A DNA stretch of 64,000 bases from a virus: IMG/VR virus record IMGVR_UViG_3300042924_008490, positions 1 through 64,000 of that record; one strand, written 5' to 3'. Below, piece after piece: positions 38,390 to 46,619 of the stretch. A model generated the notes under the pieces. The model worked only from the letters and a program-made list of their open reading frames with translations, was not told the origin of the DNA and ran no database searches. Numbering within the stretch: position 1 is the stretch's first letter; each line of letters starts with the position of its first letter. The translations under genes and the position numbers were made by a program.

Positions 38390-40246
38390 CTAAAATTTAT
38401 CAAGAAAACTATTGAATACATTGTTTATTTTATCGACTTTTTGTGGACTTCTACCCTTTAACATATAATCCCACATATCTCCATTCTTTTTATGTTTATT
38501 AAAATCTGCTTCAACATCATAACCTTTTACATCTAAACTTTCTTTAAAAGGTTCTGCTTTACTTTTATCTGAGAATACCCAAGAACCATTTGTACTTGGA
38601 GTGGTAACAAAGTCCCAACAAATCAATTCAAAATCATCTTGAACAATATTCTTTCCTCCTTTTGATTCTAAACTGCCTACACCACGACTTGAAACTCCAT
38701 ATTGGAAACCATGCATAATGTCATGAGCAACTTTATCCGCAGGATGAGAAATCACACCTGTTTCGATATATCCTTTGGTTATTGGCAAATAAATTTCACC
38801 CATCAAGTTTCTTCCTTCCCACCAAAGATTTGTTACTCTCATTGAAACCTCTTTAATTGAAATAATTGCACTATTTCCTGACCAATGAGTTTTTCCATTT
38901 TGTCTTGCAAAAAAAGTATGATTTGGAACATTTACACAATAAACATTACCTTCATAATCGAATTCTTCAACGTTTAGAAAATCTTTGTTTAGAAAAATGC
39001 CATTACAGTTAGATATATTTAAATTATAAATATCATTTGAATTACATGCTTTAATTACACGCACATTACCATTCTCATTAATTAATCTATCTTTTTCAGT
39101 TCTTTTATCTATAGTAATATTACCTGATTTTCCAATTTTCAATAAGACTTCTTGAAAATCTTCCATTAATCTTTTTGAAGTTGAAAAAATAGATTTTTGT
39201 TTACCATTTCTTATTCTACCATCACCCAAATGAAACCATTCAAATAAAGCATTTAAAGCTTCAAAAGACATATTTTTTATTTCTTCAGGAATATATTTAT
39301 TTTTTGCAACACCTAAAGGTTTTAAAAAATTATATAATCTTGCATCAATAATTTCAAAAACAAAACCTCCAATTTTTCTTTCACGTTTATGATAGTGAAA
39401 ATTTAAAGATTTTAATAGATTATCTATTTTTTCTACATTATCAAGTTTATTTTGATATATAGATATTTTATACGAATTTTTTGATGTTGAACAACAACCT
39501 TCAGCTAAATAAATACCCATAAACGAAGCAAATAAAACCTCGTCTAAAACTAAATCTTTAAATTGCTTTTTATAAAATACTTTAGAAACTCTCGAATGAA
39601 AATTTTTAATTTTAGAAATTGTAAAGACTCCATTTTTACCTAATTCAAAATTTCTTGCCCTTTTAGGTATAAAATGTTTAGACATATCAGTTATTGTTCC
39701 ATCAAAAATTTCTTGTGCAGTGATAAATTTTTGATTTCTTTTTCTATCGTATACAGGAAATTTATGATTAGGTGTAACTTCACAATCAATATTCAACCCC
39801 TTTAGACGAATCATTTTTCCTTTATAAGGTTGAACTATTTTTTTATTAATTTTTTCAACAGAAATCGAACCATCTAATTTTAACGTATAAACAGATTCAT
39901 TTCCTTTTAAATCTTTAAAAAATTTCCAACCTTCAGTTGTTAAAATTTCAGCTCCTTCACTATAGCAATCAGGATGGTCAGTATGACCTGCTGATGCACC
40001 CATTTCAACTAATTTCATATAATTATCAGCTTCCCTTTTAAGCAATGCTTCAGGATAAATACGACCGTTTTTATTTTCAACTCCGTATTTTTGCATAACT
40101 CCATATAACTTAGTGCGAACAATTCCTTTTTCAGAACCTTCTTTCATTTCCCTAAGAAAATGAGTATTATCACTTGGGCTAATAAAGCCTGCATCATATT
40201 CAATTAAAAGACCATAACCTGTCTTACCTTTAGAAAGTGGTTTCAT
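38390..40246 (-). CDS. Prohead protease (T4 gp21-like) interrupted by an intein
   Basis: 618 residues as encoded; 253 after splicing. Extein parts: residues 1-93, with KNGRIYPEALLKREADNY and GHTDHPD, and residues 459-618, starting SAIISIKEVSMRVTNLWWEG and containing the catalytic-Ser region YGVSSRGVGSL (about 518-528). Joined, GHTDHPD-SAI restores the conserved catalytic-His motif of this serine protease family (S77-like), which matures the head by cutting after [LI]xE. The intein occupies residues 94-458 (separate entry). Without splicing the active site is split by 365 residues, so head maturation should depend on splicing. It lies upstream of the scaffold and capsid genes as in T4. Confidence 0.9.
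   Translation of the reverse strand: MKPLSKGKTGYGLLIEYDAGFISPSDNTHFLREMKEGSEKGIVRTKLYGVMQKYGVENKNGRIYPEALLKREADNYMKLVEMGASAGHTDHPDCYSEGAEILTTEGWKFFKDLKGNESVYTLKLDGSISVEKINKKIVQPYKGKMIRLKGLNIDCEVTPNHKFPVYDRKRNQKFITAQEIFDGTITDMSKHFIPKRARNFELGKNGVFTISKIKNFHSRVSKVFYKKQFKDLVLDEVLFASFMGIYLAEGCCSTSKNSYKISIYQNKLDNVEKIDNLLKSLNFHYHKRERKIGGFVFEIIDARLYNFLKPLGVAKNKYIPEEIKNMSFEALNALFEWFHLGDGRIRNGKQKSIFSTSKRLMEDFQEVLLKIGKSGNITIDKRTEKDRLINENGNVRVIKACNSNDIYNLNISNCNGIFLNKDFLNVEEFDYEGNVYCVNVPNHTFFARQNGKTHWSGNSAIISIKEVSMRVTNLWWEGRNLMGEIYLPITKGYIETGVISHPADKVAHDIMHGFQYGVSSRGVGSLESKGGKNIVQDDFELICWDFVTTPSTNGSWVFSDKSKAEPFKESLDVKGYDVEADFNKHKKNGDMWDYMLKGRSPQKVDKINNVFNSFLDKF
38873..39967 (-). other. Intein with LAGLIDADG homing endonuclease in the prohead protease
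   Basis: 365 residues. Cys1 begins CYSEGAEILTTEGWKFFKDL (block A); GLNIDCEVTPNHKFPVY is block B with TxxH; NVYCVNVPNHTFFARQNGK is block F; the end is THWSGN before Ser+1. Penultimate Gly replaces the usual His, as in several phage inteins of the W-S/T-G-N type. The central region has two LAGLIDADG motifs, FMGIYLAEGCC and FEWFHLGDGRI, both with their acidic residue, so the homing endonuclease may be active. Insertion is between Asp93 and Ser of the catalytic HPDS motif. Confidence 0.9.
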
Positions 40247-42293: not shown

Positions 42294-44813
42294 TTATTTC
42301 ATTTTTTTCATTATTTCTAAAATTCTTTCCAATTCATCATCACTCTCCATGATTAATTTGTCTTTCTTATTGTTTATAAAAGATTCTGCTGTAGGTTCAG
42401 GTGTAGCTTCTTCCGCAGGGGGTGCTTCAGGTGCTGTTGCTTCAGGTGCTGTTGCTTCAGGTGCTGTTGCTTCAGGTGCTGTTGCTTCAGCTCCTCCGCC
42501 CATATCAGCTCCTCCACCACCCATCTCCAAAGCTCCTGTTGGAGTGAAGTTGCCTCCACCACCACCACCGCCCATGTCAGAGCTTACAGTTTCTCCTGTT
42601 GGAGCAGCAGGGGCATCGCCTGTAGCTTCTATTCCATATAATTTTAATATGCCATCAAAAAGGGTTGAAGATTTGACCTTTGTTGCAGCAGTTTTCATTT
42701 CTTCAGCTGCTACAGATTCCATAAATTGCTGTTCAAGATTCAATTTAATTTCATCATCAGTCATACCTAATATTCTTTTCATAGCCATAGTTACAGATAA
42801 AGCAGAAATACCTTTTCCTGCATCTGCAACTGCATCTTTGAAAGAATTTATTTTGGCTGCAAATTGCTCGGTTCTCATCACCTCAGCTTGAACTGAAGGA
42901 TTATTCAAAGACAATTCAAAATTATGCAATTCATCATCTAACCCTAAAAGTGTCAAATGAACCATTGCTATTTTATTTAATTCTTGAAGAGCTGCTTGCT
43001 GAATACGATTTATTTTTCTTGCGAAACGAACATCCGCCATAGCTAAATTCTTTCCTTCACCTGCAGCAGCATCATATTGCAAAAATGGTTTAGGAATACC
43101 AAGAGCAGCAAATAATTGATTCAAATCGTATTCAATATCCGCAATTTGGTCAATATTGGATGCACCTGCCAACGTATCAATTTTTGTACCTTCATTTGCA
43201 TCTCTTATAGGAATGAAATAATCTTGGTCATACCCCATTACGTTATATTTCAAATCCTCTTGACCTGTATATTCATCAATATGTCTTTTACGCTTAAATC
43301 TACTTGCAATATCCTCAATATAAGCTTGAACATCATTAGGGTCAATATTACCTACATTTATATAATAAACTCTTCTATCAATTGCTCTCAAAAGTCTTAT
43401 AGTTCTCATAGCATCTTCCACAAGAAGCAAGTTTTTCCATATTCTTCTTGCCTTTTCTAAAACAGAAACTCCATAAGGAAGTCTTCTATCATCTATAAGA
43501 AGCCTGAAATGTGCAATCTGCCAATATTTGAACTCAGCAATATCTGTTGATTTCCAACGGAAAATTACTTCATCCTCATGATTTTTTAATGTAGCTTTAT
43601 TTCTTGCATTTGTAGTCCCTTCAACTCTTTCAACTTCAATATTAGCCAATTGTCTTGTTCCTACAATGCCCATTTCATCGTCAATCTGCAAATAAACAAA
43701 ATTATCACCATACTTACAATTTGCCACGAAAACCCCATTCCTACTATAATTTCCATGCTCATCTCTTGAACAAATAGCGAAATTATGCCTATCATGCTCA
43801 CCGTTAGGGCCAAGCACTTCCATGCAATATACATCATCTAATTCATCTAATTCAACAACAGAAACTACTTTGTGATTTACTAATTTTCCGTTTGAAATAG
43901 ATAAACTACCTTTTCTCAATTTAATTAATCCACTATTTAAGAGATTTTCTGAAAGAATTCTATGTGTCAACTTATAATCATTAGTTTTAGGATTATATAC
44001 TCTTTCAGCTTTATTTACTAATCGACTTTTATTACTTCCTTCCTTAGTGTAAAAAGGCATTAAGCTATCACCAACATTTAAATTTTCTGCAGCTTTATAC
44101 GAACCATTCCTCATCATATATTGATGGTCAGGTGTGGTATCAGTATACGTACCATCATCAAAAGTAACTCTATAAATTTTAGAATTCTTTCTTGTTAAGT
44201 CGCACCAAACAATTTTACTTGGAACAATGTCATTTGTACCTTCTTGTACAGAATATGTCCATATCTCTTCGCCTGACTTCACTTTTTGTGAAAGTTCTTC
44301 GATAGAAATTGTTGAACCATCTAACAAGGGTATCATACTGTTTTTTCGGACAGGCAGATTTCGTATCCACATTGGAAGTACGGTATGAATATTTAACCTA
44401 TTGTAAAACAACTCTTTAAGTTCATCTTGAACTCTTTTACTTTCAGAATAAATATTTAAAATCTTACCTTCTGCATTTACAGTTGTACATTCTTCCATCA
44501 AAATATCTAAAGCTTGACCTATAATTGGATAATATTCCATTAAGTCATAATCTAAGTACGCAGGATATCTCTGAGTTTCATATAACAAAGATTTCTCTTG
44601 AATATGAGTTTTAACTTTCTGCCATTGCCCACTTAAAAATTTAGTCTGTTGCTTTTCAAGCTTCTTTGTTTCATAATCCTTTTTATCCTTAGTAGTATAA
44701 ATAGTTTTATTAGGATTCTGTGCTGTTGCTTTATCATCAACATAAGGATTATCCTTCAAAAAGCTTTGGGTTAACTTTTTATATTTTGTTATTATAGGCT
44801 GATTCCCTTCCAT
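42294..44813 (-). CDS. Portal protein (T4 gp20-like) interrupted by a mini-intein
   Basis: 839 residues as encoded; 627 after removal of residues 154-365. Portal features: RYPAYLDYDLMEYYPIIGQALDIL (82-105), ELFYNRLNIHTVLPMWIRNL (134-153) joining CKYGDNFVYLQIDD (366-379), VLEKARRIWKNLLLVEDAM, the RRVYYINVGNI strand, and PKPFLQYDAAAGEGKNLA. The dodecameric portal is the DNA gate and the nucleus for head assembly. The C-terminus has a low-complexity EATAP repeat, then AESFINNKKDKLIMESDDELERIL, again with [IL]xE sites. It lies 27 bases after the terminase gene, as in T4. Confidence 0.92.
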   Translation of the reverse strand: MEGNQPIITKYKKLTQSFLKDNPYVDDKATAQNPNKTIYTTKDKKDYETKKLEKQQTKFLSGQWQKVKTHIQEKSLLYETQRYPAYLDYDLMEYYPIIGQALDILMEECTTVNAEGKILNIYSESKRVQDELKELFYNRLNIHTVLPMWIRNLPVRKNSMIPLLDGSTISIEELSQKVKSGEEIWTYSVQEGTNDIVPSKIVWCDLTRKNSKIYRVTFDDGTYTDTTPDHQYMMRNGSYKAAENLNVGDSLMPFYTKEGSNKSRLVNKAERVYNPKTNDYKLTHRILSENLLNSGLIKLRKGSLSISNGKLVNHKVVSVVELDELDDVYCMEVLGPNGEHDRHNFAICSRDEHGNYSRNGVFVANCKYGDNFVYLQIDDEMGIVGTRQLANIEVERVEGTTNARNKATLKNHEDEVIFRWKSTDIAEFKYWQIAHFRLLIDDRRLPYGVSVLEKARRIWKNLLLVEDAMRTIRLLRAIDRRVYYINVGNIDPNDVQAYIEDIASRFKRKRHIDEYTGQEDLKYNVMGYDQDYFIPIRDANEGTKIDTLAGASNIDQIADIEYDLNQLFAALGIPKPFLQYDAAAGEGKNLAMADVRFARKINRIQQAALQELNKIAMVHLTLLGLDDELHNFELSLNNPSVQAEVMRTEQFAAKINSFKDAVADAGKGISALSVTMAMKRILGMTDDEIKLNLEQQFMESVAAEEMKTAATKVKSSTLFDGILKLYGIEATGDAPAAPTGETVSSDMGGGGGGGNFTPTGALEMGGGGADMGGGAEATAPEATAPEATAPEATAPEAPPAEEATPEPTAESFINNKKDKLIMESDDELERILEIMKKMK
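42424..42492 (-). repeat. 15-bp repeat encoding EATAP in the portal C-terminus
   Basis: Four exact 15-base copies plus a partial one encode Ala-Pro-Glu-Ala-Thr units in a probably disordered tail. Confidence 0.85.
43719..44354 (-). other. Mini-intein in the portal protein, position 1 probably Pro
   Basis: 212 residues between Leu153 and Cys366. Block A is PVRKNSMIPLLDGSTISIEEL with DG at positions 12-13, the normal spacing from residue 1; block B is VTFDDGTYTDTTPDHQYMM with TxxH; VGDSLMPFY follows; block F is DDVYCMEVLGPNGEHDRHNF; block G is RNGVFVAN before Cys+1. No homing endonuclease. Position 1 is Pro rather than Cys or Ser, while block F has Cys in VYC. This resembles class 3 inteins, which use a block F Cys, but the class 3 Trp and Thr partners are not evident. 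Penultimate Ala replaces His. Start at Ser159 is a less likely alternative. Confidence 0.82.
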
Positions 44814-44840: not shown

Positions 44841-46619
44841 TTATCTGAAAAGCCAACTATGTTCACCTGTAGGGTCTTGTTCAGATTTATAAATAAAATT
44901 ACCATCTTTTCTATTTTTTACATCTGAAGGAGTGATAATTGGTTTATTACCATTTACAATTTCTCTTTTAACTCTTACTCCGCCATTACCAAGTACATTC
45001 AAAATACTTTTTCTTGATTGAGTTGCTTTTTCTAAACTCTTGAAATCTGTTTCCAATACCCAAAGTGCAAGTGCTGCAGCAAATATTAAGTCATCATTAA
45101 ACCCTGATGTATGGTCAGGTCTTCCATTTACCCAAATGAAAGTTTCTAATTCTGCAGTAAATCTTTTAGACCTTATTTTGAATTCATTAGATTCAATTAC
45201 ATTTGTCAATTTTCCTATAATTTGAGGTCTTTTTGAACTTATTTTATAACCTGCAACTAATTTATTATCATTATAAGTCAATACAGGTTTTTTCTTCATA
45301 AATTCAACAGTTCCCTTGGAATAATATAAATGCTTATATTCAAATTCTTGTAATTTTAAAATACAGTTATCACCGTACCCCCCTGTAGTATCTATAATTG
45401 TCAATGCGGAAAACATATTACCCCATTTGAAAACAATTTCTGCAAGATGTTCAGGTCTTACTTTACCTTTGAATTCTAAAGCTTGATTTCCTGTAACAGT
45501 ATCAATAATAACAATAGCAGAATAGTCATCAGCATTACCACTACTAACATCCACTCCCATCATATATTCATGTCCTTCTATTGGATATTCAAACAACCAT
45601 AGTCTATCTTCCATCTCATGTTTTTCAATAGGTTCTTGAACATTAAACCTTTCATGATATTCAATCCATTCTTGTTCAACTACAGTACCTGCAGAACCTT
45701 CAAATTTAACATCTAATTCTCGTGCAATAGATAACTTATCATTGTTCAACATTGCACACATTTCCTTATACCAAGGAGCATAAGCTTTATACCCTGCTTT
45801 CTCCATTTTTTCAAATGAAGCAAATGTATATTCAGTTTCTTTTACAATTTCCGTTTTACCATTTTCATCATCCTTTTGCCATTCCAAGTTCTTATTATAT
45901 CTTGGGTCTTCGTACCATTTCAATTGAACTATATTAAATCCATTTTCACCTGATTTGGCACTCATATATGTTTTATAATATAATTCATCTTTACCATTAG
46001 GAGTCGAAATGATTATCATTTTACCCCCTGTAATAAGAGCTGCCATTGAAGCAGTATATAACTCCTTTGCAAAAGTTTCTACATATGCAGCCTCATCTAT
46101 AACTAAGTATGTAGGAGTCCAACCCCTCAGAGCATCGGGAGATGTAGCTACTGCTTTTATAATAGTTCCATTCATTAACTCTAAAGTTTCTGTAGAACCT
46201 TTACCTTTTATATGACCTTCTGTTTCTTTTGAATCGTCATAATTAGCACCCCAAACCCATCTTGGCAATTGAGATAAAAAAAGTCTGATACCTGCTATAA
46301 ATTTTTTAGCTGAAGAAAATTTATTTGCAATAATCATTATAATTTCAGGTTTCTTTGTATCAGCATATGCAGCTTTAACTGCTAAAAATGCTTGAGTAGT
46401 AGTAGAAATACCTGTCTGTCGAGGTTTTGTAACAATGTTATGTCGGTACTTATCGTAACAGCCTACAAGTTCTTTTTGACGAGGAAACAATTTAAAAGGC
46501 ACAAAACCACCTCTTGTTAAATCCACAGTCTTCATATATTTTTCAATAAGAAACGCAGGATTCAACATTCCAATCATATATTCCTTTTGAATATCTGCCT
46601 TTGTCATCTGTTGATTCAT
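44841..46619 (-). CDS. Terminase large subunit (T4 gp17-like)
   Basis: 592 residues. ATPase: TKPRQTGISTTT (64-75) as Walker A variant, TPTYLVIDEAAYV (168-180) as Walker B with catalytic Glu, and IIISTPNGK (202-210) as coupling motif. Nuclease: EYMMGVDVSSGNADDYSAI (351-369) with the first metal Asp, LTIIDTTGGYGDNC (about 408-421), and GFNDDLIFAAALA (about 545-557) with the late acidic pair. It pumps DNA into the prohead through the portal and cuts it at the end. Length matches T4 gp17 (610). Own TATTTATA element; the portal gene follows. Confidence 0.95.
   Translation of the reverse strand: MNQQMTKADIQKEYMIGMLNPAFLIEKYMKTVDLTRGGFVPFKLFPRQKELVGCYDKYRHNIVTKPRQTGISTTTQAFLAVKAAYADTKKPEIIMIIANKFSSAKKFIAGIRLFLSQLPRWVWGANYDDSKETEGHIKGKGSTETLELMNGTIIKAVATSPDALRGWTPTYLVIDEAAYVETFAKELYTASMAALITGGKMIIISTPNGKDELYYKTYMSAKSGENGFNIVQLKWYEDPRYNKNLEWQKDDENGKTEIVKETEYTFASFEKMEKAGYKAYAPWYKEMCAMLNNDKLSIARELDVKFEGSAGTVVEQEWIEYHERFNVQEPIEKHEMEDRLWLFEYPIEGHEYMMGVDVSSGNADDYSAIVIIDTVTGNQALEFKGKVRPEHLAEIVFKWGNMFSALTIIDTTGGYGDNCILKLQEFEYKHLYYSKGTVEFMKKKPVLTYNDNKLVAGYKISSKRPQIIGKLTNVIESNEFKIRSKRFTAELETFIWVNGRPDHTSGFNDDLIFAAALALWVLETDFKSLEKATQSRKSILNVLGNGGVRVKREIVNGNKPIITPSDVKNRKDGNFIYKSEQDPTGEHSWLFR

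Follow-up and report, generated by a model that had tools for sequence, protein, structure and literature searches.

The interrupted portal gene and its splice junctions

The stretch of DNA analysed here (the window, 64,000 nucleotides) belongs to the record of an uncultured virus that is 125,583 bases long (IMGVR_UViG_3300042924_008490). On its minus strand lies a T4-like portal protein gene, which encodes an 839-aa product interrupted by a mini-intein and is adjoined by a terminase large subunit gene at 44841-46619 (Table 1). The intein was recognized by its motifs (Pfam Intein_splicing, 3.4e-13), a HINT fold, and an exact in-frame insertion; it spans portal residues Pro154-Asn365, exactly as predicted in a first-pass annotation made from the sequence alone. 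The C-terminus of the portal (42294-42570, minus strand) carries tandem Ala-Pro-Glu-Ala-Thr repeats and Gly runs.

Table 1. Features of the intein-interrupted portal gene, in window coordinates; intein residues are numbered from Pro1, and letters with numbers denote positions in splicing blocks.
Feature	Position	Strand	Basis
Portal protein gene (T4-like gp20), intein-interrupted	42294..44813	-	Pfam PF07230 (Portal_T4) 1.4e-62; PHROG 213
N-extein, residues 1-153, ending ...PMWIRNL	44355..44813	-	Intein-less allele L213; isolate portals
Mini-intein, 212 aa, Pro1 to Asn212, endonuclease-free	43719..44354	-	PF14890; HINT fold; exact empty site
C-extein, CKYGDN... to stop	42294..43718	-	Intein-less allele L213
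+1 codon (Cys+1, C-extein start)	43716..43718	-	Found in intein-less portals as well
Pro1 codon, in place of Cys1/Ser1	44352..44354	-	Pro1 in 79/84 family representatives
Trp50-Cys51 (WC[DG]), ahead of block B	44202..44207	-	83/84 representatives
His77 (B:10)	44124..44126	-	Invariant in family
Tyr79 (B:12), Trp in class 3	44118..44120	-	
Cys177 (F:4), proposed first nucleophile	43824..43826	-	84/84 representatives
DRHNF, block F, Arg-His-Asn-Phe invariant	43779..43793	-	Alignment
Extra F-G segment, missing in canonical cousins	43737..43778	-	Alignment with GyrB inteins
Ala211, penultimate (G:6), His in most inteins	43722..43724	-	His in 0/84 representatives
Asn212 (G:7), cyclising residue	43719..43721	-	Invariant

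The splice sites were fixed by alignment with uninterrupted portals, a check that the annotation had proposed. An intein-less allele (L213), recovered by a scan with the joined flanks, reads ...MWIRNL-CKYGDN... (the hyphen marks the junction) with nothing replacing the 636 bp; it is identical to the window portal at 202 of the 202 extein residues queried and shares ∼97% DNA identity with it around the site. In two isolates, Flavobacterium phage immuto and Microcystis phage Mel-JY01, the portal sequence at this site is WIRNM-CKYGD and WIRNL-CKYGD, respectively. Because of these empty sites, the window intein is known to start at Pro, end at Asn, and be followed by Cys at +1. The Pro start, which had been suspected from the sequence, was also recovered with the TIGR01445 intein N-terminal model, in which intein residue 5 aligned to model position 5, and with an AlphaFold model, whose Pro-to-Asn span aligned on the first to last residues of solved inteins. 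The empty site of L213 rules out that the intein begins at Ser159 or elsewhere, and the 79 representatives, which use all four Pro codons, rule out a sequencing error at Pro1. Portals carrying the PVRKNS segment without an intein, which the annotation had set against a Pro1 junction, were not found. Since the extein protein is the same in both alleles, a mature, working portal very probably needs the insert removed.

The AlphaFold model of the intein (pLDDT 82, pTM 0.81), likewise proposed as a check, adopted a HINT fold whose best structural matches were class 1 inteins, namely NrdJ-1 (Z 20.8) and Ssp DnaB (Z 20.0); class 3 structures scored lower (6bs8, Z 16.5; 6rix, Z 16.1; 6zgq, Z 16.6). 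Sequence profiles of the family described below matched solved class 1 chains only, and no solved class 3 chain was matched at E values up to 10.

A portal intein family with Pro at residue 1

Scans of IMG/VR recovered 105 distinct relatives, which were reduced to 84 representatives at <90% identity. No close relative was found among 50,697 records of isolate phages. The Pro1 portal inteins make up a large family in uncultured phages that had not been characterised before, and what the annotation had called a possible distinct variant is one member of it. Residue 1 is Pro in 79 representatives and Cys in four members at the same site as the window intein and in the more distant L155. The Pro1 members occupy three portal sites, WxRNx-CKYGD, YNxx-[S/C/T]xxDYF, and LPGGQF-TGDIDD, with Cys at +1 in the first, Ser, Cys, or Thr in the second, and Thr in the third; Ser or Thr stands at +1 in most relatives at site b and in all of those at site e.

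All 79 Pro1 members share Trp-Cys before block B, His at B:10, Cys at F:4, and Asn at G:7, and the block F Cys first noticed in the window intein (VYC) is present in every one of the 84 representatives. Position B:12 is more variable (Phe in 44, Tyr in 29, Ile in 5, Trp in 2, others in 4). Neither a penultimate His, correctly read as replaced by Ala in the window intein, nor Thr at G:5 occurs in any of the 84, the penultimate residue being mostly Ser (46) or Lys (16). Further marks had been overlooked in the annotation, specifically a second invariant Cys (in WC[DG]), the Arg of DRHNF, the F-G insertion, and the same-site Cys1 alleles; the Arg before HNF and the added F-G segment are common to family members. 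The second Cys, Cys51 (codon 44202-44204), is as conserved as Cys177, with Cys in all Pro1 and same-site Cys1 members and Ala in the site c and L155 relatives. Same-site Cys1 members carry both the WC Cys and Cys F:4, and neither a tie between Pro1 and the WC Cys nor the use of Cys F:4 as a mark of Pro1 alone could be upheld.

Both Pro1 (CCA 35, CCT 27, CCG 9, CCC 8 in the 79 members) and Cys F:4 (TGT 66, TGC 18 in the 84 representatives) are kept as amino acids, since all four Pro codons and both Cys codons occur. The splicing domain is under purifying selection, with a median dN/dS of 0.21 (671 pairs) as against 0.28 (412 pairs) in the neighbouring extein; these pairwise Nei-Gojobori values are approximate owing to high divergence. 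Many members have a central HNH-like endonuclease region (HHxDFNKxNN pattern, judged by eye), and others are endonuclease-free minis, down to 157 aa, with the key residues unchanged; because these minis keep the same residues, homing alone fails to explain the conservation. The lack of both a nucleophile at residue 1 and a penultimate His would suit a degenerate intein that does not splice or only cleaves, but the portal is a structural protein required for the virion, purifying selection is evident, the terminal Asn and the +1 nucleophile are invariant, and the family extends over dozens of lineages with minis retained, all of which make degeneration a very remote prospect. If active, the Pro1 minis of 157-173 aa, with Ser or Cys at +1, would be new splicing tools.

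The T4-like portal gene is an intein hot spot (L063, L119, L070, L179, and others), with many distinct sites among these phages and, in a single gene, several of them filled. At L158, on a contig that was binned as Candidatus Wolfebacteria and looks like phage, the portal reading frame (1879 aa) contains four inteins, of which those at sites a and b are Pro1. Where these portal genes carry inteins at further sites, F:4 is Asp, Asn, or Thr and a penultimate His is often present, as judged only from clear block F/G reads in a noisy regex-based control on other inteins.

Class assignment and the proposed splicing route

Pro1 separates the window intein from class 1, in which residue 1 is Cys, Ser, or Thr. 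Class 3 inteins are marked by a first attack from Cys F:4, by Trp B:12 and Thr G:5, and by a +1 residue that is mostly Ser or Thr (PMC5222942). The window intein has no Ser, Thr, or Cys at residue 1 and has Cys at F:4, but it carries Tyr at B:12, Val at G:5, and Cys at +1; the loss of the class 3 Trp and Thr had been noted correctly from the sequence, and in the family Trp is found at B:12 in only 2 of the 84 representatives and Thr at G:5 in none. Under a looser definition of class 3 (no N-end Cys, Cys at C2:4; PMC7891396) the window intein belongs to it. Published class 3 inteins (n = 1701) deviate from Trp B:12 in 6.1% and from Thr G:5 in 4.6% of cases (PMC7891396). Thr G:5 has been put forward as a member of the catalytic triad of class 3 (PMC7664689), and in class 3 mutants its replacement can have minimal effect, that of Trp B:12 has more, and that of Cys F:4 is fatal (PMC5222942).

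Two alternatives to an attack led by Cys177 concern the other available nucleophiles. In a class 2-like route, Cys+1 would strike the Leu-Pro bond directly and Cys177 would only assist. Like the KlbA inteins of class 2, the window intein combines a non-nucleophilic residue 1 (Pro; Ala1 in KlbA) with Cys+1, and at its site Cys+1 is without exception and Ser predominates at the penultimate place, as in KlbA inteins. KlbA, however, requires Asp F:4 for its N-junction chemistry (PMC4031507), whereas F:4 is Cys in the window intein and in the family without any variation, and Ser or Thr stands at +1 in Pro1 relatives inserted elsewhere in the portal, at two further sites; class 2 is thus disfavoured, and we consider such a route unlikely. 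The second alternative lies outside the three classes and would make Cys51 of the WC pair the nucleophile, or let it share that role with Cys177 through a relay or redox control. Cys51 is invariant in all Pro1 and same-site Cys1 members, and Trp50-Cys51 aligns with Trp-His of DnaE inteins (alignment with 7qil), placing Cys51 at the His, but the established place of the class 3 nucleophile is F:4. We know of no nucleophile role for the Cys51 position in solved inteins, and this route seems highly improbable.

A class 3-like route through Cys177 is favoured because Asp F:4 is absent and because Pro1 relatives have Ser or Thr at +1, which among known routes lacking a residue-1 nucleophile is a class 3 trait (PMC5222942). 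On these sequence features the window intein likely works like class 3, with three counterpoints. Val occupies G:5; Cys, the second commonest F:4 residue among inteins, class 1 included (PMC4031507), is also found at F:4 in the same-site Cys1 siblings and hence is not diagnostic alone; and Cys51 equals Cys177 in conservation. The class 3-like reading put forward in the first-pass annotation accordingly stands as the best mechanistic fit, while the WCT signature failed and the block F Cys that prompted it is insufficient by itself.

It is probable that the window intein is an active mini-intein that excises itself from the portal without a residue-1 nucleophile, and from its conserved residues we infer the following order. 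Cys177, together with His77, would attack the Leu-Pro peptide bond and take up the N-extein as a thioester, forming a block F branched intermediate, and Cys+1 would then take over the N-extein from Cys177. Asn212 would cyclise and release the intein despite the lack of a penultimate His, a step in which the Arg-His of DRHNF, both invariant, might assist, and a final S-to-N shift would yield WIRNLCKYGDN.

The class 3 inteins of mycobacteriophage Bethlehem DnaB, Msm DnaB-1, and Dra Snf2 resemble the window intein in lacking a residue-1 nucleophile and in their Cys F:4, HINT fold, and phage setting, but the window intein has no Trp B:12, Thr G:5, or penultimate His, has Cys at +1, and contains the extra F-G segment. 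The split AceL NrdHF intein shows that a class 3 intein can do without Trp B:12 and without either the block F or the block G His (PMC7891396). It likewise comes from an environmental phage, has a variant triplet, and lacks the block G His; however, its triplet is MCT, with Thr kept, and its +1 residue is Ser, whereas the window intein has a YCV triplet, retains the block F His with an invariant Arg, and is continuous.

Relation of the Pro1 and Cys1 forms

The nearest curated family is the intein in RtcB proteins, with which canonical cousins in Patescibacteria GyrB were found. All seven of the GyrB inteins read (L293, L304, L306-L308, L310, and L315, used as a tree root) have Cys1, Asp F:4, His G:6, and Ser+1. 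These class 1 inteins share with the window intein the block layout, an NHK motif before block F, and a long linker, but have neither the F-G insertion nor DRHNF. The layout common to GyrB and phage portal inteins may point to phage-Patescibacteria exchange.

The Pro1 and Cys1 forms, roughly 50-60% identical, share one insertion codon in the portal gene, and both have Cys F:4. In a first tree, rooted with site c/d inteins, the Cys1 members formed a basal grade and the Pro1 members one clade (100/95), whereas in a second, rooted with the GyrB inteins and built with residue 1, F:4, and G:6 omitted, Cys1 fell inside Pro1 (84/98). A Pro1 clade was not rejected in the latter (AU test, p 0.23). Because the two trees disagree and in view of the AU result, no direction between Cys1 and Pro1 is claimed; it is safe to say that at least one change between Cys and Pro took place at residue 1 with Cys F:4 unchanged. 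The Cys F:4 portal family, Cys1 and Pro1 members together, lay on one side of a branch separating it from GyrB and other portal inteins, with support that is not strong (83/97).

Class 3 inteins have been described as monophyletic and derived from a single event (PMC3196547, PMC4031507), and it has been argued that they are unlikely to have evolved directly from class 1, since grafting of the triad failed (PMC7664689). We tentatively raise the possibility, for which the chances seem nearly balanced, of a second, independent origin of splicing initiated by Cys F:4, in a portal lineage derived from class 1 in which residue 1 switched between Cys and Pro when Cys F:4 was already present. If true, this would conflict with the published positions that class 3 has a single origin and cannot have come directly from class 1. 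The natural Cys1/Pro1 siblings make this debated change of first nucleophile testable by a single-residue swap.

Cys F:4 was also observed in two other settings. The Cys1 intein L155, at portal site b, has it in a TGC context (TGT in the site c relatives), which may reflect another route to Cys F:4. Within the window, the prohead protease gene (Peptidase_S77; 38390-40246, minus strand) is split by an intein that has Cys1 and contains LAGLIDADG domains. Its block F is likewise VYC, with Gly at the penultimate position and Ser at +1, so that Cys F:4 coexists there with Cys1.
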